Shown here: positions 1 to 14,210 of the stretch, in pieces
Numbering within the stretch: the first letter of the stretch is position 1
Layout: every line of letters starts with the position of its first letter
Assembly (NCBI GenBank): GCA_946480055.1
Contig: CAMLID010000070.1
Span: forward strand, 1 to 16,831
Source of the DNA: an uncultured Lysobacter sp.
GTDB taxonomy: Bacteria; Pseudomonadota; Gammaproteobacteria; Xanthomonadales; Xanthomonadaceae
Reading direction: 5' to 3'
DNA length: 16,831 nt
Position numbers and translations under genes: made by a program
The notes under the pieces: model-generated
The model's database searches: none
What the model saw: the letters and a program-made list of their open reading frames with translations, nothing else
What the model was told of the DNA's origin: nothing

Positions 1-869
1 CGGGCGAAGCGTGCGATCGCCGAGTTGTGCAGGATCTGCCCGACCACCGGGATCTTCAACATCATGCGGTCGAGGAAGTGCGCGAACGCGGGCGAGCGGT
101 TCTTGGCCATGATGAAGCCCACGCCGATGCCTATCACCAGCAGCAGCACCGCCCACCAGTACGCGATCATGAAATCGCTGGCGCCGATGATCATCAGGGT
201 GAACGCCGGAAGTTCGGCGCCGAAGCTCTCGAAAGTCTTCTGGAACTGCGGCACCACGAAGATCAGCAGGATCGCGCTGACCAGGATCGCTACGGCTACG
301 ACCGTGGCCGGGTAGAACAGCGCCTTCTTGATCTTGCCCTTCAGGCTTTCGATGTTTTCTTTGTAGCTGGCGACGGTGTCGAGCACCGTTTCCAGCACAC
401 CCGCCGATTCGCCGGCCTTGACCAGGTTGCGGTAGAGCTCGTCGAACTGGACCGGGTGCTTGCTCAGCGCCTCGTGCATCGAAGAACCGCTTTCCAGATC
501 GGCGCGGACCGTATTGATCAGCGTCTTCATTTTCTGGTTCTTCTGGCCGCCGGCCATGATCTCCAGCGAGGTCACGATCGGCACACCGGATTTCATCATG
601 GTGGCGATCTGGCGGCTGAAGATGGCGATGTCGCGCGGCGTGATGCGCTTGCCGGCGCCGCCGAACAAGGGCTTGCCCTTGGGCTTGACCGTGCCGGGCG
701 TGATGCCCTGACGGCGCAGCTCGGCGCGCAGCATGTTGGCGTTCTTCGCCGACTGCTCGCCTTTCATGACGACGCCGCGCTTGTCCTTGCCTTCCCAGAC
801 AAAGGTTTCGAGCGGATTGGGGCGGCGGACGGGGGTCTGCTGCTTGGTCGCGGTGCGGGTCGCGGACAT
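1..869 (-). CDS. pilC: PilC, type IV pilus inner-membrane platform protein (C-terminus cut by window edge)
   Basis: PilC is the polytopic inner-membrane platform on which the PilB and PilT ATPases act to assemble and retract pili. Reading leftward from the ATG at 869, the first 289 residues are visible; family members have about 400-420, so the C-terminal third lies outside the window. The fragment begins MSATRTATKQQ and has a basic cytoplasmic N-terminal region. The first T2SSF domain follows, with FSRQIATMMKSGVPI, then ESGSSMHEALSKHP and YRNLVKAGESAGVLE. Two hydrophobic stretches come next, one after KIKKALFYPA (AILVSAILLIFVVPQF) and one around AYWWAVLLLVIGIGVGFIM. The visible part ends at the start of the second repeat. 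Its ATG lies only 3 nt after the pilB stop, so the two genes are surely co-transcribed and probably translationally coupled. The prepilin peptidase pilD often follows pilC in this family of bacteria and may lie beyond the edge. Confidence 0.96.
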   Translation of the reverse strand, partial: MSATRTATKQQTPVRRPNPLETFVWEGKDKRGVVMKGEQSAKNANMLRAELRRQGITPGTVKPKGKPLFGGAGKRITPRDIAIFSRQIATMMKSGVPIVTSLEIMAGGQKNQKMKTLINTVRADLESGSSMHEALSKHPVQFDELYRNLVKAGESAGVLETVLDTVASYKENIESLKGKIKKALFYPATVVAVAILVSAILLIFVVPQFQKTFESFGAELPAFTLMIIGASDFMIAYWWAVLLLVIGIGVGFIMAKNRSPAFAHFLDRMMLKIPVVGQILHNSAIARFA

Positions 870-872
870 GGT

Positions 873-2600
873 TTAGTCCTTGGTAACGCGGTTGATTTCG
901 GAGAGGCTGGTGACGCCGTTCCTGACCTTCATTAACGCCGATTGGCGCAGGTCGCGGACGCCGGACTTCAATGCGGCGGCGGCGATCTGCATCGCGTTGC
1001 CGCCTTCGAGCACGATCGCCTGGATCTGTTCGGTCATGGGCATGACCTGGTAGATGCCGGTACGACCCTTATAGCCCTCGGTGCAGTCCGGGCAGCCGGC
1101 GGGCTCGTAGATCTTGAGGCCGCCGACGATCTCGTCGTGGCTGAAGCCCTCGGCCAGCAGCGCGTGCTCGGGCAGGTGAACCTCGCGCTTGCAGTCGTGC
1201 AGGCGTCGGGCCAGGCGCTGGGCGATGACCAGGGTCACCGACGAGGTGATGTTGTACGGCGCCACGCCCATGTTCATCAGGCGCGCGATGGTCTGCGGCG
1301 CGTCGTTGGTGTGCAGGGTCGATAGCACCATATGGCCGGTCTGGGCGGCCTTGATCGCGATTTCGGCGGTTTCGAGGTCGCGGATTTCGCCGACCATGAT
1401 CACGTCCGGATCCTGGCGCAGGAAGCTGCGCAGCGCGGCGGCGAAGGTCATGCCGCGCTTCACGTTCATCTGCACCTGGTTGATGCCCGGCACGCGGATT
1501 TCGACCGGATCCTCGACGGTGGAGATATTGCGCATATCGTCGTTGAGGATATTGAGCGCGGTGTACAGCGACACCGTCTTGCCCGAGCCGGTCGGACCGG
1601 TGACCAGGACCATGCCGTAAGGCTTGACCACCGCGCCGACGAACAGTTCTTTCTGATCTTCCTCGTAGCCGAGCTTGTCCACGCCCAGGCGCGCGGCGCT
1701 GCCGTCGAGGATACGCAGCACGATCTTCTCGCCGAACAGGGTCGGCAGGGTGCTGACGCGGAAGTCGATCTGCTTGGTCTTGGACAGGTTGAGCTTGATG
1801 CGGCCGTCCTGCGGCACGCGCTTTTCGGCGATGTCCAACTGCGCCATCACCTTCAGACGCGCGGCGATGCGCGGGCTGAGCTTGATCGGCACCTTGGCGA
1901 CCTGCTTGAGGATGCCGTCGATGCGCAGTCGCACCCGGTATTCAATTTCGTAGGGCTCGAAGTGGATGTCCGAGGCGCCGCGTCGGATCGCGTCGACCAG
2001 CACCTTGTTGACGAACTTCACCACCGGGGTGTCGTCGCCCTTGGCGTCGACGCCGCTGTCGCCGGCGGCGGTCAGGTCGTCGTCGCCGCTGCCGACGTCG
2101 AGCGTCTCCAGCCCTTCCTCGTTGACGCCGTCGCCGAGCGCGTCGGCCGATTCCAGCCACTGGTCCAGGCTGCGACGGATCGTGTCCTCGTCGACCAGGA
2201 TGGCCTCGACCACCAGGTTGGTCTGGAACTTGACCTCGTCCAGGGCACGGGTGTTGGTCGGATCGGCCAGGCCCACGAACAGCTTGTTGCCGCGCTTGAA
2301 CAGCGGCAGCACGGCATGCTTGCGGACCAGTTCCTCGCTGACCAGCTTGATCGCCGATTGCGAGGAGTCGAGCGTGGAGGCATCGAACAGCGGCACGCCG
2401 AACTCGATCGAGTTGGCGGCGGCGAGCTGGCCGGCCGAAACCAGGCGCTTGTCGGACAGGTAGGTCGCGATCGGCTTGCGTTCGCCGCTGGCGGCAGCCA
2501 TGGCCTCGCGGGCCGCGGTCTCTTCCAGAGCGCCGTCCAGCACCAGACGCCGGGCAATGCCGGTGATCCCCACCAAGTTGGCGGTAGCGACGCTAGACAT
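873..2600 (-). CDS. pilB: PilB, type IV pilus extension ATPase
   Basis: PilB is the cytoplasmic hexameric ATPase that powers pilus extension through PilC. At 575 residues it has the usual length. The N-terminal MshEN-like region (about 1-150) is followed by an acidic linker (about 152-190, rich in D/E/G) and the ATPase core. Seen in order are Walker A GPTGSGKT (335-342), the Asp box TVEDPVEIR (361-369), Walker B DVIMVGEIRD (399-408) and the His box TGHMVLSTLHTND (421-433). The C-terminal zinc-binding region has C470 followed by C503-P-D-C506. Only one Cys is visible in the first half, with His468 next to it, whereas many homologues have CxxC there. The ATG at 2600 has an upstream GAGGA on the coding strand. 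The 148-bp gap upstream suggests it may have its own promoter or be read through from the upstream glycosyltransferase gene. Confidence 0.97.
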   Translation of the reverse strand: MSSVATANLVGITGIARRLVLDGALEETAAREAMAAASGERKPIATYLSDKRLVSAGQLAAANSIEFGVPLFDASTLDSSQSAIKLVSEELVRKHAVLPLFKRGNKLFVGLADPTNTRALDEVKFQTNLVVEAILVDEDTIRRSLDQWLESADALGDGVNEEGLETLDVGSGDDDLTAAGDSGVDAKGDDTPVVKFVNKVLVDAIRRGASDIHFEPYEIEYRVRLRIDGILKQVAKVPIKLSPRIAARLKVMAQLDIAEKRVPQDGRIKLNLSKTKQIDFRVSTLPTLFGEKIVLRILDGSAARLGVDKLGYEEDQKELFVGAVVKPYGMVLVTGPTGSGKTVSLYTALNILNDDMRNISTVEDPVEIRVPGINQVQMNVKRGMTFAAALRSFLRQDPDVIMVGEIRDLETAEIAIKAAQTGHMVLSTLHTNDAPQTIARLMNMGVAPYNITSSVTLVIAQRLARRLHDCKREVHLPEHALLAEGFSHDEIVGGLKIYEPAGCPDCTEGYKGRTGIYQVMPMTEQIQAIVLEGGNAMQIAAAALKSGVRDLRQSALMKVRNGVTSLSEINRVTKD

Positions 2601-2748: not shown

Positions 2749-2755
2749 TCAGCGA
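2737..2755 (-). terminator. Hairpin overlapping the stop of the GT-C gene
   Basis: Perfect inverted repeat TCGCTGAA / TTCAGCGA with a 3-nt spacer, spanning the stop codon of the 2749-4683 gene. There is no U-run after it on the minus strand, so it is at best a weak terminator or an mRNA-end stem. Confidence 0.3.
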
Positions 2756-4683
2756 TCCGCGATCAGTGTCTCAAGCCGCGCCAGGCGGGCCTGGCCGGCG
2801 CGGTCGTAGGAACGCGTGCGTTCAGCCAACTGACTCAGCACGCGTCGAGCGCAGCCCATCTGGCCGTTCTTGACGCAGGCTTGGACCAGCAGATCGCCGA
2901 TATCGGCCGAAGCCTGCGGCGACCAGGCCCGTTCGGCCTGCGCCTGGGCCTGCGGCCAGCGCTCGGCACGGGCGTAAAGCAAGGCCGCTACGAAGCGCAG
3001 TTGGCGTTTGGGCGTGGCCCGATCGGGCTGGGCCGAGGCCGCATCGAGCAAGGCAGTGACCGTGGCGATGGCCTGCGGGTTGCCGATCCGCGGGCAGCGG
3101 CCCGGCGCCGAAGCTTGGGCGAGCAGGTCGGCGACCAGCACTTCGTCCAGGGTGATTTGCGGCTGACGGTCGGCCAGCGCGCGTTGCAGCTCGGCGGGAT
3201 CGGGGTCGCGACCGCCGAGACAGGCGATAGAGACCAGGTCGATACCGGCCAGCATGCGTCGCCGCGGCAGCGGGCTACGGCTCAGGTAGCGCATCTGCGC
3301 CGTGGCCTCGTCGTAGCGATTCGCGCTCAAGTCGATGAACGCCTGGGTCTGTCGCGCCCGCAGCGAGTCGGGATGATAGGCCAGGGCATTGGCGACGATC
3401 TGGGGCTTGCTGCGCCAGGTCGCCACCCGGCCCTGTGTCGACCAGGCCAGCGCGGCGCACACCGCGACCACGGCCAGCACAGCGCTGCGAAGGCGTCGTG
3501 GGCTCGCTGCGCGTGTCGGCAGCAGCGCGCACAGACCGATCACGGCCAGAGCCAGGCCTATCGACGGCAGGTAGTTGCGATGTTCGTAATACATCTCCAG
3601 CGGCAGCAGGCCCGATTCCACGGAGTGCGCGGCTAGAAAGAAGAACCAGCCGGCGAAGACGCTGGGCGCGCGCTTGCGCAGCGCCACGGCGATAGCGCTT
3701 ACGGCCAGCAGCAGCACGATCGCCGCGGCCGTGGTCGACGGCGAGAACAGGCCGGTGGAGGTCGCGACGTCGTCGCGGAACAGCGTCATCTGTTCGCCGC
3801 GCGGTAGCAGCAGGTAGCCGAGGTACTCGCACAGCACCCGAGTCTGGGTCAGCAGGCGCTGGATCGGGCTGAAGTCCCATTCGGCGTAGCCGCTCAGCAG
3901 CGTGTCGGGCGCGAATGCGAGCGCCGCGAGCACGGCAGCGGCCGGCAGTGCCACAAACAGGCCGAAGAAGGCCTTGATCGCCGCTGGGCGCTGGCCGTGG
4001 AAATAAGCCAGCTCCAGCGCCAGGCACAGCAAGGGCGCGACTGCCGCGTTCTGCTTGCTGAGCACGCCGGCAACGAGCAGCAGCGGAAACGCCAGGAACA
4101 GCAACAGCCAGGCCGAGCGTTGGTGCCGGCCGGCGAGGCGCTGGCGCGCGACGAAGTAGGCAAGAGTCGCGCCCAGCGCGAACAGCGCGCTGAGTTGGGC
4201 CATGCGCTGCACCGCATACAGCACGGTGCTGACCTGAATCGGATGCAGCAGCCACAGCGCGACCGCGGCGGCGGCCAGGAAACGCGCCCGCGGCGCCAGC
4301 GCCGCGTCTTCGCCCAGAGCCCGGCGCAGCAGCCGGAATGCGATCAGGCCGCAGAGCAGGTGCAGCAGCACGTTGCCGATCTTGTAGGACAGCGGGCCGG
4401 GGCCGCCGAGCCCTGCGCTGAGCAGGAAACTGAGCATGGACACCGGGCGCGAGTCGATCAGCCCGTCCTGGCCCAGCACGACCTGTCGCCAGTCGAGCTG
4501 GCCGTTGTACCAGGGCCGCAGCGCCGCCAGGTTGGCCGCGTCGTCGAACAGGAAGGGGCCGTTCAGGCCACTCCAGTACAAGGCGACCGTGGCCACGGCC
4601 GCGCACAGCAGCAGCCAGCGCGCGGTGTCCCATCGCGCTGCGGTGCCGCCGATGTCGGCGCTCAGAGCCTTACGCAGGGACAT
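2749..4683 (-). CDS. GT-C-fold membrane protein with C-terminal TPR region, probable pilin O-glycosyltransferase (copy nearest pilB)
   Basis: A 644-residue polytopic membrane protein with roughly ten to twelve hydrophobic segments between residues 22 and 415, then a soluble Arg/Ala-rich C-terminal part (about 430-644) that looks like TPR helices. The first predicted periplasmic loop carries GPFLFDDAANL, with D47-D48 in the position of the catalytic acidic motif of GT-C enzymes. Other shared motifs are SRPVSML (78-84), LWLLHPIQVSTVLYAVQRMA (143-162), LSKQNAAVAPL (208-218) and YYEHRNYLPSIG (365-376). This set resembles the eukaryotic TMTC O-mannosyltransferase family and bacterial relatives that take sugar from a polyprenyl-phosphate donor in the periplasm. 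With two paralogues beside pilin genes here, transfer to PilA is the likely role; the substrate is inferred. It lies 212 bp after the 4896-6884 gene and 148 bp before pilB, and it is the only copy with no pilin directly upstream. No strong ribosome-binding site precedes the ATG at 4683. Automatic annotation may call it just a TPR protein. Confidence 0.75.
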   Translation of the reverse strand: MSLRKALSADIGGTAARWDTARWLLLCAAVATVALYWSGLNGPFLFDDAANLAALRPWYNGQLDWRQVVLGQDGLIDSRPVSMLSFLLSAGLGGPGPLSYKIGNVLLHLLCGLIAFRLLRRALGEDAALAPRARFLAAAAVALWLLHPIQVSTVLYAVQRMAQLSALFALGATLAYFVARQRLAGRHQRSAWLLLFLAFPLLLVAGVLSKQNAAVAPLLCLALELAYFHGQRPAAIKAFFGLFVALPAAAVLAALAFAPDTLLSGYAEWDFSPIQRLLTQTRVLCEYLGYLLLPRGEQMTLFRDDVATSTGLFSPSTTAAAIVLLLAVSAIAVALRKRAPSVFAGWFFFLAAHSVESGLLPLEMYYEHRNYLPSIGLALAVIGLCALLPTRAASPRRLRSAVLAVVAVCAALAWSTQGRVATWRSKPQIVANALAYHPDSLRARQTQAFIDLSANRYDEATAQMRYLSRSPLPRRRMLAGIDLVSIACLGGRDPDPAELQRALADRQPQITLDEVLVADLLAQASAPGRCPRIGNPQAIATVTALLDAASAQPDRATPKRQLRFVAALLYARAERWPQAQAQAERAWSPQASADIGDLLVQACVKNGQMGCARRVLSQLAERTRSYDRAGQARLARLETLIADR

Positions 4684-4895
4684 GGTGCGCTACCGTCGAT
4701 GGCTGTTCGCAGCGGCGGCCCGGGCTCGTCGTCGCGACGGCGAGTTCAAGAGTGGTCGCCACCGTTGCGGCGGTCGTTGCAGCGGTCATGGTGCGCTCGG
4801 TCGTGTCCCCGCGGAGACTGTAGCGCATAGGCGCGAGCCACCCGTAGCCTACGAATCGTGATCTGTGCCGGCATACACTGCCGCGCGCGTAGGTC
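4684..4895. other. Intergenic gap between two GT-C genes, no gene seen
   Basis: These 212 bp separate two paralogous GT-C genes. A minus-strand reading frame (4912-4670) crosses it, but its product is low-complexity Ala/Thr-rich and overlaps both neighbours, so I do not call it a gene. A coding-strand GGCTCGCGCCTATGC resembles a -24/-12 promoter but has an 11-nt instead of a 10-nt spacing. I see no convincing promoter or terminator, so the downstream gene may depend on read-through. Confidence 0.4.
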
Positions 4896-6884
4896 TCATC
4901 GCGCGGGCGCATTCGGCGCAGGCGTGGCCAGCATCCGACGTATCGCCCCGAGCTCGGATTGGCCGAGGCTGTCGTAAGGCTTCATGCGCCGCTCGAGTTC
5001 GGCCAGCACCCGGATCGCGTCGTCGCTGGAACCTCGTGCGGCTAGAACCTTGGCCAGCAGGATGCCCGTCGGCAGGTCGCCGCTCGCGGCCCAGGCGAGT
5101 TGCGCCTGGGTTTGCGCGGCGGCGAGATCGCCGATGCTGGCGTAGATCTCGGCGGCGAGCAGGCGGGTCAGCCATTTCGGTCGCGACGATTCGGGCTGTG
5201 CTCGTGTGGCGTCGAGCGTCCGCACGATGGTGTCGGCGAGCTCATGCGATTCGAAGCCGCAGCCCTGGGCGGCGTTGAACCGGGCCAACAATCGTAGCGC
5301 CTGGACTTCGAAGACGGTGGCGCTGGGCGGCGCCTGGGTCGCGATCGCGTCGAGCGCGGCGCGATCTGAAGCCAGGCCCGCGCGACAACGCGCCGTGATC
5401 AGGTTGATGCGGCCCAGCCAGCGCCGCCGCGGATCCTGGCTGGCAGCCAGCGACTTCATCAGCGCGATATTGCCGCGCAGATCGCCACGACCCAGCAGCA
5501 CGCCGCTCTGGTCGTAGAGCGCACGCAGCGAATGCGGATGTTCGCGCATTCCTTCCGCTGCGATCGTGTCTATGCGTTGCCAGACCGATACACGCGAGGA
5601 CGTGATCGCAGCAAGCGTCACGACAGCCAGTGCCGCCACGCCCAACAGCTGGATCGGATAGCCGGGACGCGACAGCAGGCGCGCCGGCAGCAGCGCCGTG
5701 AGCCCCACCAAGGTCAAGGTCAGGCCGACCAGGGGCAGGTAGTTGCGGTGTTCGTAATACAGCTCGACCGGCAGGAAGGTCGACTCCACCGCGTGCGCGG
5801 CGAGAAAGAAGAACCAGCCCAGGCAGGCGCTGGGCGCCGATGCCCGCCAAGCCCAGGCCGCGACGCTGATCGCGACCAGGGCGACGATCGAGGTCGCGGT
5901 TGAGATCGGCGACAACAGGCCTGTGGAGATCGCGAAATCGTCCGTGTACAAGCCCAGGCCGGAGCCGTGCGGGAGGACGATATTGCCCAGGTAGGCCATC
6001 AGCGCGCGCGGTTCGCTCAGCAGTCGCTGTGTCAGTGTGAAATCCCATTCCGAGTAGCCGCCGAGCAACCATTGCGGAGTGAGCACCAGCGACGCCAGGA
6101 CCACGGCCGCCGGTGCGAACAGGAATACGCCGAAAAACGCCCGCACCGGCCGCGCCGCGACGCCGTCGCGTTTGAAGCAGGTCCACTCGATAACCGCGCA
6201 GATCAGCGGCGCAACGGCCGCGTTCTGCTTGCTCAGCAAGCCCAGCAGCACCAGCAGCGGGAAGGTCAGGAACAGCTTCGACTGCGTGGGACGCGATTGT
6301 CCCGCGGCGAGTTCCTGGCGTGCGAGCACATAGACCAGCACCGCGGCCAGCACCAGCAGCGTGCTCAGCTGTGCCATGCGCTGCACCGAATACAGCACGG
6401 TGCTGACCTGGATCGGGTGCAGCAGCCAGAGCCCGCTGGCGATCGTCGCCAGCAGCCGCGCCTGTCCGCTCAGGCGCGGGTCGAGCGCGAGCAGGCGGCG
6501 TAGCACCTGCCAGACCAGCAGGCCGCACAGCAGATGGACGATCAGGTTGCCCAGCTTGAACGAAAAAGGCTCGAAACCGCCCAGGGCGGCGCTCAGGACG
6601 AAGCTGCCCATCGCCACCGGTCGTCCTGTCAGCGCAGCGCCGCGACCGAGCACCGTTTCTGCGAAGGTCGCCTGGCCGGCCAGCCAGCGCTCGATGATCG
6701 GGAAAGTGACGCCGTCGTCGAGCAGAAAGGGACCGCTCAGTCCGCGCCAGTAGACCGCCAGCGTAACCAGCGCGAGTAGGGCCAGGCCGATCGTGGCGAT
6801 GCGCGCGTAACGGGCTTCGATCGGCGACGAGGCTGAGGAGGCGGGCTGTGCGGAGGAAGCGTCGAATCGCATGATCGGCTGCAC
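4896..6884 (-). CDS. GT-C-fold membrane protein with C-terminal TPR region, probable pilin O-glycosyltransferase (paired with the divergent pilin)
   Basis: A 662-residue paralogue of the flanking GT-C proteins. It has a Ser/Ala-rich cytoplasmic N-terminal extension (about 6-25) that the other two lack. Then come the first membrane helix, GPFLLDDGVTF with D56-D57 in the first periplasmic loop, GRPVAM, LWLLHPIQVSTVLYSVQRMA, LLSKQNAAVAPL and YYEHRNYLPLVG (376-387). The soluble C-terminal part (about 440-662) contains helical repeat-like segments ending in a Pro/Ala tail. Family knowledge suggests transfer of a sugar from a polyprenyl-phosphate carrier to a periplasmic protein. It follows the pilin gene at 7081-7509 by about 196 bp in the same direction, so that pilin is the obvious candidate acceptor. 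The start is uncertain: a GTG at 6884 gives the longest form and an ATG at 6872 (MRFDASS) would shorten it by four residues. Neither has a strong ribosome-binding site. Confidence 0.75.
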   Translation of the reverse strand: MQPIMRFDASSAQPASSASSPIEARYARIATIGLALLALVTLAVYWRGLSGPFLLDDGVTFPIIERWLAGQATFAETVLGRGAALTGRPVAMGSFVLSAALGGFEPFSFKLGNLIVHLLCGLLVWQVLRRLLALDPRLSGQARLLATIASGLWLLHPIQVSTVLYSVQRMAQLSTLLVLAAVLVYVLARQELAAGQSRPTQSKLFLTFPLLVLLGLLSKQNAAVAPLICAVIEWTCFKRDGVAARPVRAFFGVFLFAPAAVVLASLVLTPQWLLGGYSEWDFTLTQRLLSEPRALMAYLGNIVLPHGSGLGLYTDDFAISTGLLSPISTATSIVALVAISVAAWAWRASAPSACLGWFFFLAAHAVESTFLPVELYYEHRNYLPLVGLTLTLVGLTALLPARLLSRPGYPIQLLGVAALAVVTLAAITSSRVSVWQRIDTIAAEGMREHPHSLRALYDQSGVLLGRGDLRGNIALMKSLAASQDPRRRWLGRINLITARCRAGLASDRAALDAIATQAPPSATVFEVQALRLLARFNAAQGCGFESHELADTIVRTLDATRAQPESSRPKWLTRLLAAEIYASIGDLAAAQTQAQLAWAASGDLPTGILLAKVLAARGSSDDAIRVLAELERRMKPYDSLGQSELGAIRRMLATPAPNAPAR

Positions 6885-7080
6885 CGAGGTGGCCGACCCG
6901 TCGCCGGAGGCGCGTAGTGGGCGTTGATGAGGAGCGCCTAGGTGAGGCGGCGAAGCGATCCTGCGTCATCGTCGCTCGCGCTGTCCAGCGCGGCGGTCTG
7001 GTTGCGGAACGTCGGCCTCATTCGCGCCGACGGCCGCATTGAGCGGCCGTCGGGTAATGCCTGAATCGCGGGGCGATGCT
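6885..7080. other. Gap between the divergent pilin and its GT-C neighbour
   Basis: These 196 bp hold one strong stem-loop near the pilin stop (7027-7053, listed separately) and otherwise no gene or clear promoter. A minus-strand frame opens at 6969, but it runs antiparallel to none of the conserved motifs and continues in the wrong frame through the GT-C gene, so it is a shadow. Confidence 0.4.
7027..7053 (-). terminator. Stem-loop after the divergent pilA (terminator-like, no U-run)
   Basis: Perfect 11-bp stem CCGACGGCCGC / GCGGCCGTCGG with a 5-nt loop, about 28 bp after the pilin stop on the minus strand. No T-run follows, so it may stabilise the 3' end of a short pilin mRNA or attenuate read-through into the GT-C gene rather than stop transcription fully. 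Confidence 0.5.
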
Positions 7081-7509
7081 TTAACCGCGGCACTCGGCCG
7101 GCAGCTGCGAATCGTTGTCCTGGCCGGAGGCCGTGCAGGTCCACTCGATACGGCCGCTGTTCTGCGTGCTTTCCGGATCCAGTTCGAAGGTCGTCGCCGG
7201 GCCGCCGGTGCTGCGCGTCACCGAACGCACAGTGCCGCCCGCCAGGACTTCCACGCTCGCGCAGTAGTCGCTGCCGGTGAAGGAAAAGCCGGTGCTGGTC
7301 GCGGTGATGTTGTTTATGCCTTCGGCCGAATGCGCGGTTTCGGCGACGGCGAGCTTGGCGCCGGCCGAAATGTGCAGGCACTCGGTGTTCTTGGTGCGGA
7401 TCGAGTAGTCCTGATAGGCCGGCAGAGCGATGGCGATCAGGATGCCCAGGATGGCGATCACGATCATGAGTTCGATGAGGGTGAAACCCTCGGCGTGGCG
7501 CTTGTTCAT
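7081..7509 (-). CDS. pilA: Type IVa major pilin (divergent third copy)
   Basis: Prepilin of 142 residues. It has a short class III leader, MNKRHAEG, cleaved after Gly8 by the prepilin peptidase, and then the canonical mature N-terminus [20 protein letters not shown] with Glu at mature position 5. The globular part has Cys at 44, 83, 125 and 140; the last two frame the C-terminal disulfide loop (IEWTCT...PAECRG). It shares the helix and the C-terminal loop region with the other two pilins but differs strongly between residues 46 and 118. It ends in CRG where the others end in CR. The ATG at 7509 has a good ribosome-binding sequence (GGAGAGGG) 4-5 nt upstream. A sigma-54 promoter lies about 90 bp upstream and a strong hairpin follows the stop, so it is probably expressed as its own short mRNA. 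The mature region is rich in Ser/Thr (66-81, 93-107), offering possible O-glycosylation sites. Confidence 0.95.
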
Positions 7510-7596
7510 GGACCCTCTCCAGTGAGCTCGATTCGGGTCGGCCTCACCGGAACCGAGTTCCGGAGCGGCGGCGATCCCCCCTGAACCAATATCAGT

Positions 7597-7611
7597 GCAA
7601 AGAGCATGCCA
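7597..7611 (-). promoter_or_regulatory. Sigma-54 (-24/-12) promoter of the divergent pilA
   Basis: The minus strand reads TGGCATGCTCTTTGC, with GG and GC separated by exactly 10 nt and a full TTGC at -12, a near-consensus RpoN site. A start about 12 nt downstream would give a leader of about 75 nt before the pilin ATG. PilR, encoded in this window, is the expected activator. Confidence 0.85.
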
Positions 7612-7780
7612 AGCCCGCACTTGTGACGGCGGTCATGATCGTGCCGTCGTTTGGCTCGCTCCGACGGCGGCGCAGTGCCTGCAGCGTCGGCATATGACGC
7701 TGCCTGGCAACTTCCTGCGGCCGCTCGTCGCGGACGAACGGAAAGCGGCCGCGGCGCACTACCGCGGGACCGGCGGCGAC
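7612..7780. promoter_or_regulatory. Upstream region of the divergent pilA / 3' region of a GT-C gene, with stem-loops
   Basis: Between the GT-C stop (7781) and the pilin promoter lie two inverted repeats. One is GCAGCGTC / GACGCTGC with a 7-nt loop (7681-7703); the other is GCGGCCGCT / AGCGGCCGC with an 18-nt loop (7717-7752). Neither has a T-run on the minus strand. They may end the GT-C transcript, or the region may hold the PilR and IHF sites for the pilin promoter; the sequence does not decide. Confidence 0.35.
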
Positions 7781-9691
7781 TTATGGTGTGCGCTGGGCGG
7801 CGCTGCGCTGGCGCCGATCGTCGATGGCCTTGCGTAGCTCGCGCAGGTACTTCTGTCCGGTGCCGTCGTAAGGCCGAGTCTGCGCCTTCAAGCGGGCGTA
7901 GGTGCGCTCGGCTTCAGGCAGTTTGCCGTTCTGCACGTACAAGCGCACCAACATCTCACCCACCGCGAAGTCCGCGCCGGGTTGCCAGGCCAAGGCGGCC
8001 TGCGCTTCGGCCTGCTGCCAATGCCGTGCTCGCGCGTAGAACTCTGCCGCGATCGCGCGCGTCACCCATTTGGAGCGCAGGTTATCGGGTTGCGCATGCG
8101 CGGCGTCCAGCAGTTTTTCGGTGGTCTGCGCCATGTCCAACAAACTGACGTCGCCGCAGCCCTTGCCGGCGATCTTGGCCATCTGCATCAGGGTCTGCGA
8201 TTCGAAGATCGTCAACTGCGGTTGTGCGTCGGCGAGCGCGCGCTGCAGCAGTGCGCGTTCGGGCTTGCCGCTGCGCAGGCATTGCGTCGTGATCAGATTC
8301 AAATTGGCCATCAAACGGTTGCGCGGGGTCGGGCTCTTCGCCAACTGCGACAACAGGCGCTCGCTTTCGTCGTACTTGCCGCCCAACAGCGCCAGCGTCG
8401 ACAGGTCGAGGTGGGCGCGCATCGAATCCGGATGGAACCGCAAGGCCTGCATCACAATGGTGTCGTAGTGACGCCAGACCAGGGCGCGCCCGAGGGTGGC
8501 GAAAGCCAGCACCGCGGCCAGGCCGGCGACGGCGACCAGGGCCAGCCGGTTCGGGCCCTGTGCCGGTTCGGCGCGGCGCGGCGCCAGCGCGCCCAGCCCG
8601 GCCACCGCCAGCAGGATTCCGATCGAGGGCAGGTAGTTGCGATGCTCGTAATACATCTCGATCGGCAGGAAGCTGGATTCGACGCCGTGCGCGACCAGGA
8701 AGAAGAACCAGCCCGCGAACAGGCTGGGTGCGCGCTTGCGCAGCGCGATCGCGGCGACGCTGATCGCGGCCAGCAGCAACAGGGCGAACAACGTCGACGG
8801 TGGCGACAGCAGGCCGGTCGAGGTCGTGAAGTCGTCGGTGTACAGGCCCATGCGCGGCGCGTACGGCAGCAGCAGGGTGCCGAGATAGTCGACCAGGACC
8901 CGGGCCTGGGTCAGCAGGCGCTCGCCCAGGCTGAAATCCCATTCGGCATAGCCATCGAGCAGACGCTCGGGCGCCAGCGTCAGCAAGGCGACGGCGCCGA
9001 GCAGAGGCAGGGCCAGGAACAGGCCGAAGAATGCGAGTACGGGCTTGGAGCGTGGGCGGCCGAAATACGCCAGCTCCAGCACCAGGCACAAGGCCGGCGC
9101 GACCGCCCCGTTCTGCTTGCTGAGCAGGCCGGCCAGCATCAGCAGCGGACACAGCACGAACAGCAGCGCGAGCGCCGGACGAATCCGACCTTCGTCGATC
9201 TGGCGGCGCGCCTGTAGGTAGGTCCACAGCGCCGCGAGCACGAACAGGGTGCTGAGCTGGGCCATACGCTGCACGGCGTAGAGCACGGTACTGGCGTGCA
9301 GCGGATGCAGTAGCCAGAGCGCGGCAAGGATTCCGGCGATCAGTTCGGCGTGCGGCGCCAGGCGTTCGTCGCGGGCGAGCGCGCGGCGCAGGACCTGCCA
9401 GCCGAGCAGGCCGCAGATCAGGTGGGTGATGAGATTGCCCAGCTTGTACGAGAACGGCACGTCGCCGCCGAGCCAGCCGCTGAGCATGAAGCTGAGCATC
9501 GAGACCGGTCGCGCGTACAGCCAGGACGCGTTGCCTGGTACCACTTCCTGCCAGGAGGCCTGGCCGGCCAGCCAGCCGTGCAGGGCGCCGAAGGCGGCGC
9601 CGTCGTCGAGCACGAACGGCCCGGCCAGCCCCGGCCAGTAGATTGCGGCGGTGACCAGCATCGCTGCGAGTAACAACAATCGAACACGCAT
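7781..9691 (-). CDS. GT-C-fold membrane protein with C-terminal TPR region, probable pilin O-glycosyltransferase (paired with the twin pilins)
   Basis: A 636-residue paralogue of the two GT-C proteins downstream. A membrane helix at residues 5-20 leads to GPFVLDDGAAF, with D29-D30 in the first periplasmic loop. RPVSML (61-66), LWLLHPLHASTVLYAVQRMA (125-144), LLSKQNGAVAP (189-199) and YYEHRNYLPSIG (347-358) follow among roughly ten to twelve hydrophobic segments. The C-terminal 200 residues are soluble and helical-repeat-like. It is most similar to the copy next to pilB, including near-identical stretches such as GYAEWDFS and ALRKRAPS. It lies 129 bp after the second of the two near-identical pilins, but a strong terminator sits in that gap, so it would be transcribed by read-through or from an unseen promoter. 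The ATG at 9691 lacks a good ribosome-binding site, which suits low expression of an enzyme next to a very abundant structural protein. Acceptor and sugar are not known. Confidence 0.75.
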   Translation of the reverse strand: MRVRLLLLAAMLVTAAIYWPGLAGPFVLDDGAAFGALHGWLAGQASWQEVVPGNASWLYARPVSMLSFMLSGWLGGDVPFSYKLGNLITHLICGLLGWQVLRRALARDERLAPHAELIAGILAALWLLHPLHASTVLYAVQRMAQLSTLFVLAALWTYLQARRQIDEGRIRPALALLFVLCPLLMLAGLLSKQNGAVAPALCLVLELAYFGRPRSKPVLAFFGLFLALPLLGAVALLTLAPERLLDGYAEWDFSLGERLLTQARVLVDYLGTLLLPYAPRMGLYTDDFTTSTGLLSPPSTLFALLLLAAISVAAIALRKRAPSLFAGWFFFLVAHGVESSFLPIEMYYEHRNYLPSIGILLAVAGLGALAPRRAEPAQGPNRLALVAVAGLAAVLAFATLGRALVWRHYDTIVMQALRFHPDSMRAHLDLSTLALLGGKYDESERLLSQLAKSPTPRNRLMANLNLITTQCLRSGKPERALLQRALADAQPQLTIFESQTLMQMAKIAGKGCGDVSLLDMAQTTEKLLDAAHAQPDNLRSKWVTRAIAAEFYARARHWQQAEAQAALAWQPGADFAVGEMLVRLYVQNGKLPEAERTYARLKAQTRPYDGTGQKYLRELRKAIDDRRQRSAAQRTP

Positions 9692-9764: not shown

Positions 9765-9799
9765 AAAAAAAACGAAACCCCGGCGAGCCGGGGTTTCGT
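9765..9799 (-). terminator. Rho-independent terminator of the second pilA
   Basis: The minus strand forms a long GC-rich stem (CGAAACCCCGGC / GCCGGGGTTTCG) followed by eight T residues, a textbook intrinsic terminator, about 22 bp after the pilin stop. Part of it is carried in the long direct repeat and occurs again at 10488-10519. Confidence 0.92.
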
Positions 9800-10240
9800 G
9801 TGTAGCACTTACGGTAAGGCTTAGCGGCACTCGGCCGGGATCTGCGAATCCGGAGCGTTCGAGGTGCAGGTCCACTCGATGCGGCCCGAACCAGCCGGCA
9901 TGGCCGGGGTCAGGGTGTGCACGGCGTTGGCGGTCGCGCCGGTGCTGCGGGTGGTCATGCCGATCACGCCGTTGGCGCCGACGACGACGCTGGCGCAGTA
10001 GTCGCTCTGGGCGAACGAGTAGCCGGTGTTGGTCGAGGTGACCAGGCTCAGCGAACCACGGTCCTGAGCGGTCTCGGACACGGCCAGCTTGGCGGCGGCG
10101 GCGACGTTCAGGCACTCGGTGTTCTTGGTGCGGATCGTGTAGTCCTGGTACGCCGGCAGAGCGATGGCGATCAGGATGCCGAGGATCGCGATCACGATCA
10201 TCAGTTCGATCAGGGTGAAGCCTTGCTGGTTGTTCTTCAT
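9768..10240. repeat. Direct repeat copy 1: pilA plus terminator
   Basis: Matches 10488-10960 at an offset of exactly 720 bp with 8 substitutions and no indels. The identity starts in the terminator A-run and ends sharply at the pilin start codon; upstream leaders are only partly similar. Two of the changes alter the protein. This indicates a tandem duplication kept similar by recent origin, selection or gene conversion. Confidence 0.95.
9821..10240 (-). CDS. pilA: Type IVa major pilin (second of the twin copies)
   Basis: Prepilin of 139 residues with leader MKNNQQG, cleavage after Gly7 and mature start [20 protein letters not shown] (Glu5 present). Cysteines at 43, 82, 125 and 138; C125-C138 frames the C-terminal disulfide loop and the protein ends PAECR. 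It differs from the neighbouring copy only at residue 77 (Ala instead of Thr) and 86 (Val instead of Asp). I start it at the ATG at 10240 because the upstream in-frame extension has no homology and the ribosome-binding sequence AGGGGA lies about 8 nt before this ATG. It has its own sigma-54 promoter and its own terminator, so it should be an independent, highly expressed transcript. There is no C-terminal Ser like the one modified by TfpO in some Pseudomonas pilins; any glycan would be on internal Ser/Thr residues. Confidence 0.96.
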
Positions 10241-10327
10241 GGTGTAGTCCCCTTTGGTGAGTTCACGTGTCCGCGGCTTGGAATCCGGCGGTAGCCGTGC
10301 GGAGTGCACGTGCCTGGTAAATGCTAC

Positions 10328-10342
10328 GCATAAAGCATGCCA
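10328..10342 (-). promoter_or_regulatory. Sigma-54 (-24/-12) promoter of the second pilA
   Basis: The minus strand reads TGGCATGCTTTATGC with GG-N10-GC spacing, preceded by T as in the other two pilin promoters. The -12 box is ATGC rather than TTGC. The predicted leader is about 75 nt. It lies about 110 bp past the terminators of the upstream pilin gene. Confidence 0.8.
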
Positions 10343-10455
10343 ATTCGGCCTTATGGGATCTCAAAACGGCACCTTGCATACCTGCGCCGTGCCGAGAGGA
10401 AGCGGAGGCTTGGCGCTGGGCTGGCGGGCACGCTGGGCTTGCAAGGCACATAAGC

Positions 10456-10478
10456 AAAGACCCCGGCAAGCCGGGGTC
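10456..10478 (-). terminator. Second, tandem hairpin terminator after the first pilA
   Basis: Stem GACCCCGG / CCGGGGTC with a 4-nt loop (10459-10478) followed on the minus strand by TTT. It lies just beyond the stronger terminator at 10488-10519, so the twin pilin genes are separated by two stop signals. The copy after the second pilA does not have this extra hairpin. Confidence 0.75.
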
Positions 10479-10487
10479 CTGAGGCAC

Positions 10488-10519
10488 AAAAACGAAACCC
10501 CGGCGAGCCGGGGTTTCGT
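10488..10519 (-). terminator. Rho-independent terminator of the first pilA
   Basis: Same stem as at 9765-9799 (CGAAACCCCGGC / GCCGGGGTTTCG), here followed on the minus strand by five T residues. About 21 bp after the pilin stop. It is part of the 473-bp repeat. Confidence 0.9.
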
Positions 10520-10540
10520 GTGTAGCACTTACGGCAAGGC

Positions 10541-10960
10541 TTAGCGGCACTCGGCCGGAATCTGCGAATCCGGAGCGTTCGAGGTGCAGGTCCACTCGAT
10601 GCGACCCGAACCAGCCGGCATGGCCGGGGTCAGGGTGTGCACGGCGTTAGCGGTCGCGCCGGTGCTGCGGGTGGTCATGCCGATCACGCCGTTGGCGCCG
10701 ACGTCGACGCTGGCGCAGTAGTCGCTCTGGGTGAACGAGTAGCCGGTGTTGGTCGAGGTGACCAGGCTCAGCGAACCACGGTCCTGGGCGGTCTCGGACA
10801 CGGCCAGCTTGGCAGCGGCGGCGACGTTCAGGCACTCGGTGTTCTTGGTGCGGATCGTGTAGTCCTGGTACGCCGGCAGAGCGATGGCGATCAGGATGCC
10901 GAGGATCGCGATCACGATCATCAGTTCGATCAGGGTGAAGCCTTGCTGGTTGTTCTTCAT
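10541..10960 (-). CDS. pilA: Type IVa major pilin (first of the twin copies, next to the divergent control region)
   Basis: Prepilin of 139 residues: leader MKNNQQG, mature N-terminus [20 protein letters not shown] with Glu5, Cys at 43, 82, 125 and 138, C-terminal disulfide loop between 125 and 138. Thr77 and Asp86 distinguish it from the second copy. The ATG at 10960 is supported by AGGGGA about 7-8 nt upstream and by the prepilin motif; an upstream in-frame ATG at 11104 would add 48 residues before the leader and would place the -24/-12 promoter inside the gene, so I reject it. It is preceded by a sigma-54 promoter and by a 300-bp region with inverted repeats, the richest control region of the three pilins, and is followed by two terminators. 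It is a good candidate for the main structural subunit of the pilus. Confidence 0.96.
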
Positions 10961-11376: not shown

Positions 11377-11778
11377 ATGCATAAGCTGGGGGCTTGGGTG
11401 ATCCGCGAAATCCTGATGATCGTATTTGTGGCCTGCTCGACCCTGGGCAGCCAGTTGTTGATCAAGCGTTCGTTGCTGCATCTGGCCGCGCGCAGTCCCG
11501 ACTTGAAGGGTTTCGACTGGCTGATGGCCGCCGTGTTGTCGCCGGGCGTGCTGACCGCAGTCGCGATCCAGGGCCTGGGCTTCGTGATCTGGGTGGTGGT
11601 GGTCAGCAAGGTCAAGCTCGGCATGGCCTTCGCGATCAATGGCGCGTCCTTTTATATATTGATGGCGGCAGTGAGCTGGTGGCTCTACGGCGAGCGCCTG
11701 ACGCCGGTGCAGTGGGGCGGGATCGTGCTGGTGTCGGCGGGCGTGCTGATGCTGTCGAGCATGGGGCAGAACGCCTGA
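11377..11778 (+). CDS. Small four-helix EamA/SMR-like membrane protein, possible lipid-linked sugar flippase
   Basis: A 133-residue hydrophobic protein with four predicted helices (about 10-30, 52-77, 83-103 and 109-129). The ending YGERLTPVQWGGIVLVSAGVLML is typical of EamA/DMT-superfamily half-length members, a group that includes the ArnE/ArnF flippase subunits; GSQLLIKRS in the first part fits too. Small proteins of this kind beside polyprenyl-phosphate glycosyltransferases often move the lipid-linked sugar across the inner membrane; that is the role I infer. It is the first gene of a four-gene rightward operon, with only 11 nt before the next start. The start is uncertain: ATG at 11377 has no clear ribosome-binding site, while a GTG at 11398 has GGGGG a few bases upstream and would remove seven residues. 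Confidence 0.7.
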   Translation: MHKLGAWVIREILMIVFVACSTLGSQLLIKRSLLHLAARSPDLKGFDWLMAAVLSPGVLTAVAIQGLGFVIWVVVVSKVKLGMAFAINGASFYILMAAVSWWLYGERLTPVQWGGIVLVSAGVLMLSSMGQNA

Positions 11779-11789
11779 GTCCCGCACCC

Positions 11790-12587
11790 GTGTCCGACCT
11801 GCTCCATTCCTTCGTAGTCCCGGCTTACGGCCGTTCGCCGCACCTGCGCGAGTGTCTGGAGTCGCTGCGGCGCCAGAGCCTGCCTTCGCGTCTGTTCATC
11901 GCGACCTCCACGCCGTACGACGGCCTGGCCGAAGTCGCTCGCGAGTACGGGGCCACACTGGCCGTGCATGCACCGAACGCCGGTATCGGTCGCGACTGGA
12001 ACTACGCCCTGGCCCAGGCCGACACGCCCTGGCTCACGGTGGCGCACCAGGACGATATCTATCTGCCCGAGTTCACCCGCCGCACGCTGGACGCCGCCGC
12101 GGCGCGACCGGATGCGGCGCTGTTGTTCACCGGCTATGCCGAACTGCTGGCCGACAGCGATGCGGTCCGCGACGCCACCGCGATGCTGCGGATCAAGCGC
12201 CTGCTGCTGGAGCTGGCGTTCCTGGGCCGAGACGCCGTCGCGCGGCCGGGCGCGAAGCTGCGTGCCTTGCGCTTCGGCTGCCCGATCCCGTGCCCTTCGG
12301 TGACCCTGGCCCGGCGTTCGCCGCCGTTCCGCTTCCGCGAAGACCTGCGCGTCAACCTGGACTGGGATGCCTGGGTGCGTTGCGCGCGGGAGCCGGGCGC
12401 GTTCGTGTACATTCGCGAGTCGTTGATGCTGCATCGCATCCATCCGGGTAGCGAGACCAGCGCGGGCGTGCGCGACGGGGTGCGCGCGGCGGAGGACCAG
12501 ATGATGTTCGATTCCCTGTGGCCGAAGCCGATCGCGCGCATGCTCGCGCGGGCCTACCGCCTGTCCTACGCGGGCGCGGAGCGATGA
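11790..12587 (+). CDS. Family 2 (GT-A) glycosyltransferase, soluble
   Basis: A 265-residue protein starting at a GTG. The N-terminus HSFVVPAYGRSPHLRECLES is the first strand and helix of a GT2 nucleotide-sugar domain. AHQDDIYLPEF (85-95) carries the acidic metal/nucleotide-binding motif, and NLDWDAWVR (189-197) is in the place of the usual acceptor-side acidic motif. No membrane helix is seen. The frame is open upstream into the preceding gene, but homology begins only here and the preceding stop lies 11 nt earlier, so the GTG at 11790 is the sensible start. It overlaps the next gene by 4 bp (ATGA), indicating translational coupling. It probably adds a sugar to a lipid-linked precursor or to a glycan; donor and acceptor cannot be read from sequence. 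Confidence 0.85.
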   Translation: MSDLLHSFVVPAYGRSPHLRECLESLRRQSLPSRLFIATSTPYDGLAEVAREYGATLAVHAPNAGIGRDWNYALAQADTPWLTVAHQDDIYLPEFTRRTLDAAAARPDAALLFTGYAELLADSDAVRDATAMLRIKRLLLELAFLGRDAVARPGAKLRALRFGCPIPCPSVTLARRSPPFRFREDLRVNLDWDAWVRCAREPGAFVYIRESLMLHRIHPGSETSAGVRDGVRAAEDQMMFDSLWPKPIARMLARAYRLSYAGAER

Positions 12588-13609
12588 GCCAGGTCGCCGA
12601 CCGGATCGGCTTGAATGCGCTACCGCAGGCGCTGGCCGAGGACGCGCCGCGGATCGCGGTGGTCGTGCCCTGCCATCGTGTGCGCCAGCACATCCTGGAC
12701 GTGATCGACGACGTGCCTGCCGTGGTCTGGCGCATCTACGTGGTCGACGACGCCTGCCCCGAGCAGTCCGGCCGCTACGTCGAACAGGAGTGCCGCGACC
12801 CACGCGTGCAGGTGCTGTTCAACGAGGTCAACCTGGGCGTCGGCGGTGCGGTGATGGCCGGTTACCAGCGCGCGGTCGCCGACGGCGCCGATGTGGTGGT
12901 GAAGATGGACGGCGACGGTCAGATGGCCGGCGCGGCGCTGCCGCAGCTGGTCGGGCCGATCCTGCGCGGCGACGCCGACTACACCAAGGGCAATCGTTTC
13001 TACGACCTGGCCCAGATCGGGCGCATGCCGAAGCTGCGCATCTTCGGCAACGCGATGCTGTCGTTCATGACCAAGATATCGTCCGGCTATTGGGACGTGT
13101 TCGATCCGACCAACGGCTACACCGCGATCCATGCCAAGGTCGTGGCCAAGCTGCCGCTGCACAAGATCAGCCGGCGCTATTTCTTCGAGACCGACATGCT
13201 GTTCCGGCTCAACATCGTCCGCGCCGTGGTCGTGGATGTGCCGATGGACGCGCGCTACGGTGCCGAGACCAGCAACCTGCGCATCTCCAAGATCCTGTTC
13301 GATTTCCTGTTCAAGCACCTGCGCAACACCTTCAAGCGCGTGTTCTACAACTATTTCCTGCGCGATCTGTCGCTGGCTTCGATCGAGCTCGCGTTCGGAG
13401 CGCTGTTCATGCTGGTCGGCACCGCGCTCGGCGCCAAGTTCTGGTTCGACTCCTACCTGACCGGCGTCACCGCATCGGCCGGTAGCGTCATGCTGGCGGC
13501 TTTGCAGGTGATCGTGGGTATCCAACTGGTGCTGGGTTTCCTGGCCTACGACATCGCCTCGGTGCCCAAGCGCACCCTGCATCCCTTGTTGCCGTCCGAC
13601 GAGGAATGA
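12584..13609 (+). CDS. Membrane-anchored GT2 glycosyltransferase, polyprenyl-phosphate sugar synthase type
   Basis: A 341-residue protein. The GT-A domain begins PRIAVVVPCHRVRQHI, has VVDDACPE (53-60), NLGVGGAVMAGYQRA (83-97) and the DxD motif KMDGDGQM (D109 and D111), then FETDMLFRLN (201-210). Two hydrophobic helices close the protein (about 262-287 and 297-323). This layout matches dolichol/undecaprenyl-phosphate sugar synthases (DPM1/GtrB-like enzymes), which load a sugar onto the polyprenyl carrier on the cytoplasmic side. It starts at the ATG that overlaps the previous stop (ATGA) and has GGAG upstream. A following methyltransferase gene starts 1 nt after its stop. In context it is the likely maker of the donor used by the GT-C proteins of this locus; the sugar is unknown. 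Confidence 0.85.
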   Translation: MSQVADRIGLNALPQALAEDAPRIAVVVPCHRVRQHILDVIDDVPAVVWRIYVVDDACPEQSGRYVEQECRDPRVQVLFNEVNLGVGGAVMAGYQRAVADGADVVVKMDGDGQMAGAALPQLVGPILRGDADYTKGNRFYDLAQIGRMPKLRIFGNAMLSFMTKISSGYWDVFDPTNGYTAIHAKVVAKLPLHKISRRYFFETDMLFRLNIVRAVVVDVPMDARYGAETSNLRISKILFDFLFKHLRNTFKRVFYNYFLRDLSLASIELAFGALFMLVGTALGAKFWFDSYLTGVTASAGSVMLAALQVIVGIQLVLGFLAYDIASVPKRTLHPLLPSDEE

Positions 13610-13610
13610 G

Positions 13611-14210
13611 ATGAGCGGCGAATTCGACCAGCGCTACACCGCCTACCAGACCGATCGCAGCGCGCTGCGGCGCCTGGTCCGGCGCGTCTACCTGCGCAGC
13701 GCGGCCGCGCAGTTGCAGGGGCCGACCTTGGATTTCGGTTGCGGCGTCGGCGAACTGCTGGAACGTCTGCCGGCCGGGTCCAAGGGGCTGGAGTACAACC
13801 GCGCCACCGTCGACCATTGCCGTTCGCGCGGGCTGGACGTGGACTGGTACGACGGCTACGCCGACGACTGGAGCCTGACGCCGCTGCGCGGCCAGCGCTA
13901 CGAGTCGATGGTGATCAGCCACGTGCTGGAGCACTTCATCGGCCCCGAGGCGATCCTGTCGAGGTTGTTGCGTTCGGCGGGCGAACTCGGCGTGCGGCGC
14001 GTGCTGGCGATCGTGCCCGGCCGCGCCGGTTACCGCATCGACGACACCCATCGCACCTTCGTCGATCGCGCGATGCTGGCCGATCCGGCGATCGTCGCCG
14101 ACAGCGGCTTCGCACTGCAGCGCGCACGCTACTTCCCGGGCAATATCCGCAAGATCGGCGACTGGTTCCCGCATCACGAACTGCAGGCGCTGTTCGTCCG
14201 CCGCGATTGA
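13611..14210 (+). CDS. Class I SAM-dependent methyltransferase
   Basis: A 199-residue protein with the SAM-binding motif TLDFGCGVGEL (39-49), an acidic residue ending strand 2 (GLEYN, E61) and HVLEH (104-108), typical of small-molecule or sugar methyltransferases of the Methyltransf_11/23 type. The ATG is 1 nt past the preceding stop, and GAGGAA, its ribosome-binding site, lies inside the end of that gene, so it is tightly coupled to the polyprenyl-sugar synthase. It ends 30 bp from the convergent pilR. The placement suggests O- or N-methylation of the sugar or lipid-linked precursor, but the acceptor is inferred from context only. Confidence 0.85.
   Translation: MSGEFDQRYTAYQTDRSALRRLVRRVYLRSAAAQLQGPTLDFGCGVGELLERLPAGSKGLEYNRATVDHCRSRGLDVDWYDGYADDWSLTPLRGQRYESMVISHVLEHFIGPEAILSRLLRSAGELGVRRVLAIVPGRAGYRIDDTHRTFVDRAMLADPAIVADSGFALQRARYFPGNIRKIGDWFPHHELQALFVRRD

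Follow-up and report, generated by a model that had tools for sequence, protein, structure and literature searches.

Several described systems share features with the locus analysed here, a 16,831-nucleotide stretch of an uncultured Lysobacter sp. (assembly GCA_946480055.1, contig CAMLID010000070.1; the window) in which three paralogous GT-C glycosyltransferases with tetratricopeptide repeat (TPR) tails, GTC1, GTC2 and GTC3, are encoded among type IV pilin genes. TfpW, a pilin-linked D-arabinofuranose (D-Araf) glycosyltransferase of Pseudomonas that takes part in periplasmic pilin glycosylation, is encoded after the pilin with a terminator between the two genes, and a terminator likewise separates pilin and accessory gene in Pseudomonas and others (PMC11841053). 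The same succession of pilin, terminator and glycosyltransferase gene occurs in the window (pilin B, a terminator-like hairpin, GTC3), whereas the other partner genes of TfpW differ; the comparison with the GTCs is by gene layout and described function. The animal O-mannosyltransferases TMTC1-4 resemble the GTCs by eye in the DD of loop EL1 followed by RP, the K(E/Q) of EL3 and an acidic EL4, and their ERxxY in EL5 was matched, likewise by eye, to E-H-R-N-Y-LP here; they also have C-terminal TPRs, and their partner is dolichol monophosphate mannose (DPM) synthase, where the GTCs have a DPM-synthase-like family-2 glycosyltransferase (GT2). Their acceptors, however, are cadherins (PMC7801869), and the Pfam model TMTC_DUF1736 matches 0 of 18 members of our family scanned. 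Three-component systems of the Gtr/GT136 type combine a polyprenyl-phosphate-sugar synthase, a flippase and a GT-C enzyme and act on O-antigen (PMC11127046), whereas here the acceptor would be pilin and the enzyme is TPR-tailed; candidates, by sequence or fold, for such a set (synthase, small flippase and GT-C families) occur together in the window. The O-oligosaccharyltransferases TfpO/PilO, TfpM, PglS and PglL also perform periplasmic O-glycosylation, several classes of them on pilins or pilin-like proteins, but they have O-antigen-ligase type domains, which cover TfpO and TfpM poorly (PMC12645811); no such Pfam match was found in GTC1-3 (E<=1) or in 15 diverse relatives (E<=0.01). In FlmG of Caulobacter a TPR module, which binds flagellins, is joined to a glycosyltransferase serving several filament paralogues, but the enzyme is cytoplasmic and of the GT-B type (PMC7591256). 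Pilin glycosyltransferases and three-component systems are, then, already known. TfpW is present as a single copy and is not known to have a TPR tail, PglL-type enzymes use pyrophosphate-linked donors, and the donor of FlmG is a nucleotide sugar.

A search of titles and abstracts of open-licence papers found nothing on a TPR-tailed, pilin-linked family or on a residue pair coupled to a synthase, which is not proof of absence; the family appears to be widespread and unstudied. It occurs in more than a quarter of the class genomes sampled (103/369, E<=1e-60) and is linked with pilins and with a single sugar-lipid synthase. Pilin glycosylation shields Pseudomonas from pilus-specific phages (PMC11841053) and may shape surface behaviour elsewhere, in a field where the known enzymes cover few lineages. 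We consider the locus of the window to be, probably, a three-component pilin O-glycosylation system in which GTC1-3 draw on a single donor and serve different acceptor pilins or sites.

Fold, pilin linkage and partner synthase

An earlier note on this DNA had described three open reading frames of 636–662 residues with a GT-C core and a TPR-like soluble tail. The frames are real, lie all on the minus strand, and each contains the DD, RPV(S/A)M, LWLLHP, SKQN and YYEHRNYLP motifs; identity to GTC1 is 45% for GTC2 and 52% for GTC3. Both domains are supported by a structure prediction and its comparison with known folds. The model of GTC3 consists of a GT-C core (residues ~1-405) followed by TPRs as a run of helix pairs (~406-636), and VIA-align matched the core to the GT-C fold, with ArnT and OST among the structures returned. 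Foldseek with the same model placed TPR proteins at the top and returned nothing at E<=0.001. Among GTC1-3 only GTC3 has a Pfam TPR match, beyond which Pfam and NCBIfam gave the three proteins no match, or matches far under cut-off; phmmer of GTC3 against the PDB gave a single weak TPR match (E 0.28), and a profile of 93 relatives matched TPR and other repeat proteins over positions ~415-640 (among 60 of 156 matches listed). TPR models were matched at E<=0.5 by at least 11 of 15 diverse relatives (among 25 of 30 families listed), a scan that, repeated at E<=0.01, gave 11 families in all. The acidic residue of the first periplasmic loop, D29, is present in 129 of 129 enzymes and D30 in 126, and K192, D286 and E349/H350/R351/Y353 are further conserved positions. 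In the Pfam scans, the TMTC model named above (PF08409), from a group the earlier note had cited as an analogue, matched none of GTC1-3 (E<=1) or of the 15 relatives (E<=0.01); a search with it across 249 genomes gave zero matches, as did the controls, and is hence uninformative.

A first genome scan yielded 59 loci, in Lysobacter, Halieaceae, Woeseiaceae, Chromatiaceae and others. A pilin was called adjacent when its gene, recognised by an N-terminal motif, lay directly upstream on the same strand with a gap of <600 bases, a rule that overlooks some pilins detectable by phmmer (L035, L044; L and G numbers denote loci and genomes of the comparison). By this measure the enzyme follows a pilin at 45 of the 58 first-scan loci whose enzyme reading frame exceeds 900 bases, at 53 of the 55 loci sampled from the Lysobacter family and at 17 of the 20 in a class-wide sample. 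Searches of 21 complete genome sets placed all 36 copies (E<=1e-15) inside a type IV pilus (T4P) locus. The Woeseiaceae-named loci have an adjacent pilin in 0 of 6 cases; L018, L025, L026 and L028 adjoin pilC-pilB, and no T4P gene was seen in the stretches of L022 and L045. Within the family of G001 the enzyme was found in 150 of 297 genomes (E<=1e-15), with one match in 103, two in 38 and three in 9 (a hand count, fragments included). Three enzymes in one T4P locus are thus unusual, as the earlier note had remarked, and two matches are common; among eight of the nine three-match genomes examined, only L001, L002, L070, L074 and L076 (the last with a weak, partial third) have three in one locus.

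The usual partner is GT2c, a family-2 glycosyltransferase gene that adjoins the enzyme or sits near pilB and is present at 17 of the 20 loci of the class-wide sample. Among solved structures its product comes closest to DPM synthase (E 7.6e-17), followed by ArnC, and its best NCBIfam model, AglJ, scores 123 of 325 bits, far under cut-off. With both genes called at E<=1e-60, the 297 genomes divide into 130 with enzyme and GT2c, 13 with the enzyme only, 2 with GT2c only and 152 with neither (Fisher p about 6e-66, uncorrected for kinship); relaxing the enzyme threshold to E<=1e-15 changes these counts to 130, 20, 2 and 145. The 13 enzyme-only genomes comprise ten with GT2b and with enzymes having Q193 and W251 (see below), G136, where a diverged GT2c-like gene adjoins the enzyme, G211, whose enzyme is on a 3.3-kb contig, and G263; in the two GT2c-only genomes the gene stands beside pilB-pilC on 14- and 15-kb contigs. 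The case for a polyprenyl-phosphate sugar as their substrate draws most of its strength from this synthase partnership. Both links that the earlier note had proposed, to pilins and to such a donor, are supported by gene order across Gammaproteobacteria and by this near-perfect co-occurrence with a DPM-synthase-like GT2.

Residues 193 and 251 and the proposed exchange of synthases

In the window, Lysobacter sp. Root916, cf310, L070, L072, L084, L085, L091, L092, L186 and L187, GT2c is missing from the locus and a cassette of GT2b, GT2a and an SMR-type gene is found instead. The sole PDB match of GT2b is again DPM synthase (E 3.9e-11), a methyltransferase lies within the examined stretch at 8 of these 11 loci, and at those other than the window GT2c is absent genome-wide. 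The window's own cassette (plus strand, 11377-14210, with SMR/EamA, GT2a, GT2b and methyltransferase genes) sits between the pilins and pilR; the earlier note did not include it, and it is central to interpreting the locus.

Exactly two of 632 columns, 193 and 251, separate the enzymes of the GT2b-cassette group from the others without exception in a set of 129. Column 193 is Q in 19 of 19 enzymes of that group and E (103), A (6) or P (1) in the rest; column 251 is W in 19 of 19 and R in 106 of the remaining 110. In an enlarged set of 198 enzymes, 174 of them with known GT2c status, the 19 enzymes of 11 GT2c-lacking loci all have an aromatic residue at 251 (18 W, 1 Y), whereas the 155 enzymes of 106 GT2c-bearing loci have R251 in 151 cases and an aromatic residue in none, and mutual information ranks 251 first and 193 second among all columns. 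The 240 database relatives listed divide into E/R (169), Q/W (68), Q/Y (2) and Q/L (1). The added genomes G928 and G963, with GT2b and no GT2c, have Q/W enzymes, and G905, with GT2c and with GT2b elsewhere, has enzymes of E/R and E/L type; G003 and G004 are both Q/W and without GT2c, and their cassettes lie apart from the enzyme, that of G003 on a different contig, at its end, and that of G004 at a distance of 104 kb. GT2b alone does not predict the switch, but GT2b without GT2c does.

Residue 193 lies in EL3 and residue 251 opens the EL4 loop. By eye, 193 corresponds to the acidic member of the EL3 motif that touches metal and phosphate in TMTC models (PMC7801869), and we infer that the two residues contact the donor. 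In an IQ-TREE phylogeny of 49 enzymes, computed with the columns around 193 and 251 removed, Q/W needs four changes, three of them forced by well-supported branches; the lineages concerned are GTC3/GTC2, GTC1 and L084-L092, of which the first two may be linked by gene conversion between neighbours. Pilin type as the driver of the switch was set aside, the pilins of window-type and E/R loci (e.g. L005) being alike by eye.

Tentatively, and with rather less assurance than we attach to the system in the window, we suggest that many Gammaproteobacteria have this large, unnamed TPR-tailed GT-C family as their standard pilin O-glycosyltransferase, working in an exchangeable module of pilin, GT-C enzyme(s) and sugar-lipid synthase. 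Two active-site residues, presumably lying opposite one another, would form a donor code of E193-R251 or Q193-W251 that changes over with the synthase. If so, enzyme sequence would allow the class of pilus sugar to be predicted, and all copies of the window's expanded set would have switched together. Since the GT-C fold is common to enzymes with very different donors, donor choice is an open question, on which the coupled pair offers a direct, testable handle.

Other combinations were also seen. At L090 (G081), GT2b, GT2a, SMR and GT2c share one locus with a single E/R enzyme, possibly an intermediate of a donor swap. Cassettes of GT2b, GT2a and SMR at L109 (with a methyltransferase), L188 and L190 belong to genomes without a match to the TPR-tailed enzyme and probably serve another transferase there. 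Residue 193 is A in 15 enzymes (L074, L076-L080, L110-L113, L115, L118, L120 and, as single copies, L093 and L117); in the 13 at multi-copy loci the next copy retains E193/R251, and the A193 copies possibly represent a further functional split.

Proposed mechanism and rival explanations

In the proposed system GT2b would charge polyprenyl phosphate with a sugar in the cytoplasm, GT2a and the methyltransferase might extend or decorate the lipid-linked sugar, and the SMR-type protein would flip it. On the periplasmic side, transfer of the sugar to Ser/Thr of pilins that the TPR tail recognises and holds would fall to the GT-C cores of GTC1-3, whose presumed active site comprises D29, K192, H350 and R351. 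The donor would be read by 193 and 251, Q/W for that of the GT2b cassette and mostly E/R for the commoner one of GT2c; since all three enzymes of the window are Q/W, they would share one donor and would differ in acceptor pilin or site. Computation shows the fold, the linkage of the genes, the co-occurrence with the synthase and the coupling of the two residues; the chemistry of the donor, its flipping, the periplasmic location, pilin as acceptor, the TPR tail as its reader and the contact of 193 and 251 with the donor are inferred from these.

The history of the paralogues bears on the last point. In the IQ-TREE phylogeny GTC1 clusters with the second, and in some cases the single, enzyme copies of other Lysobacter loci (98/95), and GTC3 and GTC2 with first copies (90/92). 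This is explained most simply if an old pair in Lysobacter later gained a third enzyme through duplication of a unit of pilin and enzyme (pilin C-GTC2). In Lysobacter sp. Root76, GTC2 is cleanly absent and pilin C is retained, which makes GTC2 dispensable in that strain and means that pilin C has no strict need of it. In most Halieaceae loci a pair of enzymes follows a single upstream pilin, and some have further pilins downstream. A midpoint-rooted FastTree phylogeny of the 129 enzymes splits into two deep clades, A and B. One A is combined with one B at 30 of the 44 multi-copy loci, in Halieaceae and in several genomes of G001's family, which points to a division of labour in those loci, and GTC1-3 all belong to B. 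The TPR tail has diverged about 1.4 times as much as the core between the window paralogues, which weakly suggests acceptor diversification, but also 1.0-1.4 times between orthologues and 1.7 times in comparison with L. antibioticus. A scheme of one pilin per enzyme was not accepted, because of Root76 and the Halieaceae pairs. Of the pilin O-glycosyltransferase reading in the earlier note, the fold, the pilin linkage and the link to a sugar-lipid synthase are supported; its separate acceptors are less well founded, the duplicated-looking pilin C-GTC2 unit and the tail divergence being offset by some equally diverged orthologue pairs, Root76 and Halieaceae.

The same observations leave some room for sequential assembly, in which the paralogues would act in turn at one pilin site: one enzyme would prime Ser/Thr, and the rest would lengthen the glycan, using either that lipid-linked sugar or a different one. 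The Halieaceae pairs, the A + B loci and the addition of arabinofuranose homopolymers by TfpW (PMC11841053) fit this scheme, but the common clade and Q/W residues of GTC1-3, the absence of GTC2 from Root76 and the likeness of pilin C-GTC2 to a duplicated unit speak against it, and we hold it to be somewhat unlikely. A non-pilin acceptor (lipid A, O-antigen or other periplasmic proteins), with the pilin linkage reflecting co-regulation, would be in line with ArnT and OST, which share the fold and act on other acceptors, with the O-antigen systems (PMC11127046) and with L045, L165 and L170, which have no pilin gene nearby. It is nevertheless improbable in view of the pilin directly upstream at most examined loci, the apparent duplication of one copy together with its pilin, and a TPR tail like that with which FlmG binds its acceptor (PMC7591256). 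Least probable by far is that the proteins serve in pilus assembly and have lost catalysis, as TfpY-like pilin accessory proteins work in assembly (PMC11841053), for the catalytic-type residues are invariant and the partnership with the sugar-lipid synthase is close.

Residues 193 and 251 might also mark lineage and not donor, having spread with the whole locus in chance association with GT2b, both traits being found in the same lineages. This we judge unlikely, a little more so than sequential assembly, because both residues adjoin the EL3 and EL4 motifs that touch donor phosphate and metal in the TMTC models (PMC7801869; placed by eye), because L090 and G905, which have both GT2b and GT2c, show R or L at 251 and not W, and because G004 is Q/W with its cassette far from the enzyme. 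Several observations nonetheless weigh against a donor code in a pilin-glycosylating module. Only 3-4 pairs are independent; none is contrary, but with so few no sign test can attain 0.05, and the number of events could shrink further if paralogues have undergone gene conversion; G928 and G963 resemble loci of L084 type already counted. GT2c was judged absent from the window at the locus only, and GT2b homologues occur in 73 of the 297 genomes, mostly elsewhere in the genome, only 10 of them with Q/W. G263 lacks GT2c yet has E193/Y251, L166 has Q193 and R251 with GT2c, and in other GT2c-bearing genomes 251 is L (L071 copy 2, G905 copy 2), K (L172), A (L174 copy 2) or E (the remote L076 copy 1). 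No pilin was called directly upstream at 13 of the 58 first-scan loci; none, nor any T4P gene, was found within 20 kb at L045, L165 and L170 or in the shorter stretches of L020, L022 and L023; and the core yielded no sequence relative of known function.

Layout of the locus

The order on the minus strand is pilS, pilR, the plus-strand cassette, pilin A, pilin B, GTC3, pilin C, GTC2, GTC1, pilB and pilC (Table 1), so that, as the earlier note stated, three pilins lie among the enzymes between pilR/pilS and pilB/pilC. The NCBIfam matches of the cassette genes are under cut-off.

Table 1. Genes and hairpins of the window
Feature	Position	Strand	Basis
GTC1, TPR-tailed GT-C glycosyltransferase, 644 aa, Lysobacter "second copy" lineage	2749..4683	-	Open reading frame, motifs, tree
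GTC2, TPR-tailed GT-C glycosyltransferase, 662 aa from GTG start	4896..6884	-	Open reading frame, motifs, tree
GTC3, TPR-tailed GT-C glycosyltransferase, 636 aa, modelled; coupled residues Q193 and W251	7781..9691	-	
Pilin C, type IV pilin	7081..7509	-	N_methyl and Pilin domains (Pfam)
Pilin B	9821..10240	-	N_methyl and Pilin domains (Pfam)
Pilin A, near-copy of pilin B	10541..10960	-	N_methyl and Pilin domains (Pfam)
Terminator-like hairpin, 12 pairs and T-run, between pilin B and GTC3	9772..9799	-	
Terminator-like hairpin past pilin A, stem same as past pilin B	10492..10519	-	
EamA/SMR-type small membrane protein, candidate flippase of lipid-linked sugar	11377..11778	+	Weak ArnE/ArnF and SMR matches
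GT2a, family-2 glycosyltransferase	11793..12587, start approximate	+	
GT2b, polyprenyl-phosphate-sugar synthase-like GT2	12590..13609; frame start possibly 12518	+	
Cassette methyltransferase	13611..14210	+	
pilB, context	873..2600	-	Named from translation
pilC, context, continues past window edge	3..869	-	Named from translation
pilR, context	14241..15644	-	Named from translation
pilS, context	15710..16828	-	Named from translation

An in-frame ATG four codons further in is an alternative to the GTG start of GTC2. The terminator scan called 9 sites in the window, compared with 4.7 in shuffles, and no hairpin past pilin C. Among the compared loci the nearest are that of Root76, with DNA identity of 96% over stretches of 4.9 and 6.0 kb and 92% over 3.0 kb, and that of G239, which has the same layout as the window. 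Two positions distinguish pilin A from pilin B, and pilin C is 64-65% identical to both. Such near-identical tandem pilins within one genome, two in the window (9821-10960) and three, similar, in L070 (8729-10652), suggest gene conversion between pilins. Other Lysobacter loci carry varied cargo between the enzyme and pilB or past the enzyme (L005:11970-16578, L008:12147-16977, L014:12366-18701, L015:13011-17443), including methyltransferases, a group-1 glycosyltransferase, a DegT aminotransferase, an epimerase and an LPG-synthase-like membrane protein, which is what variable glycan genes would lead one to expect.
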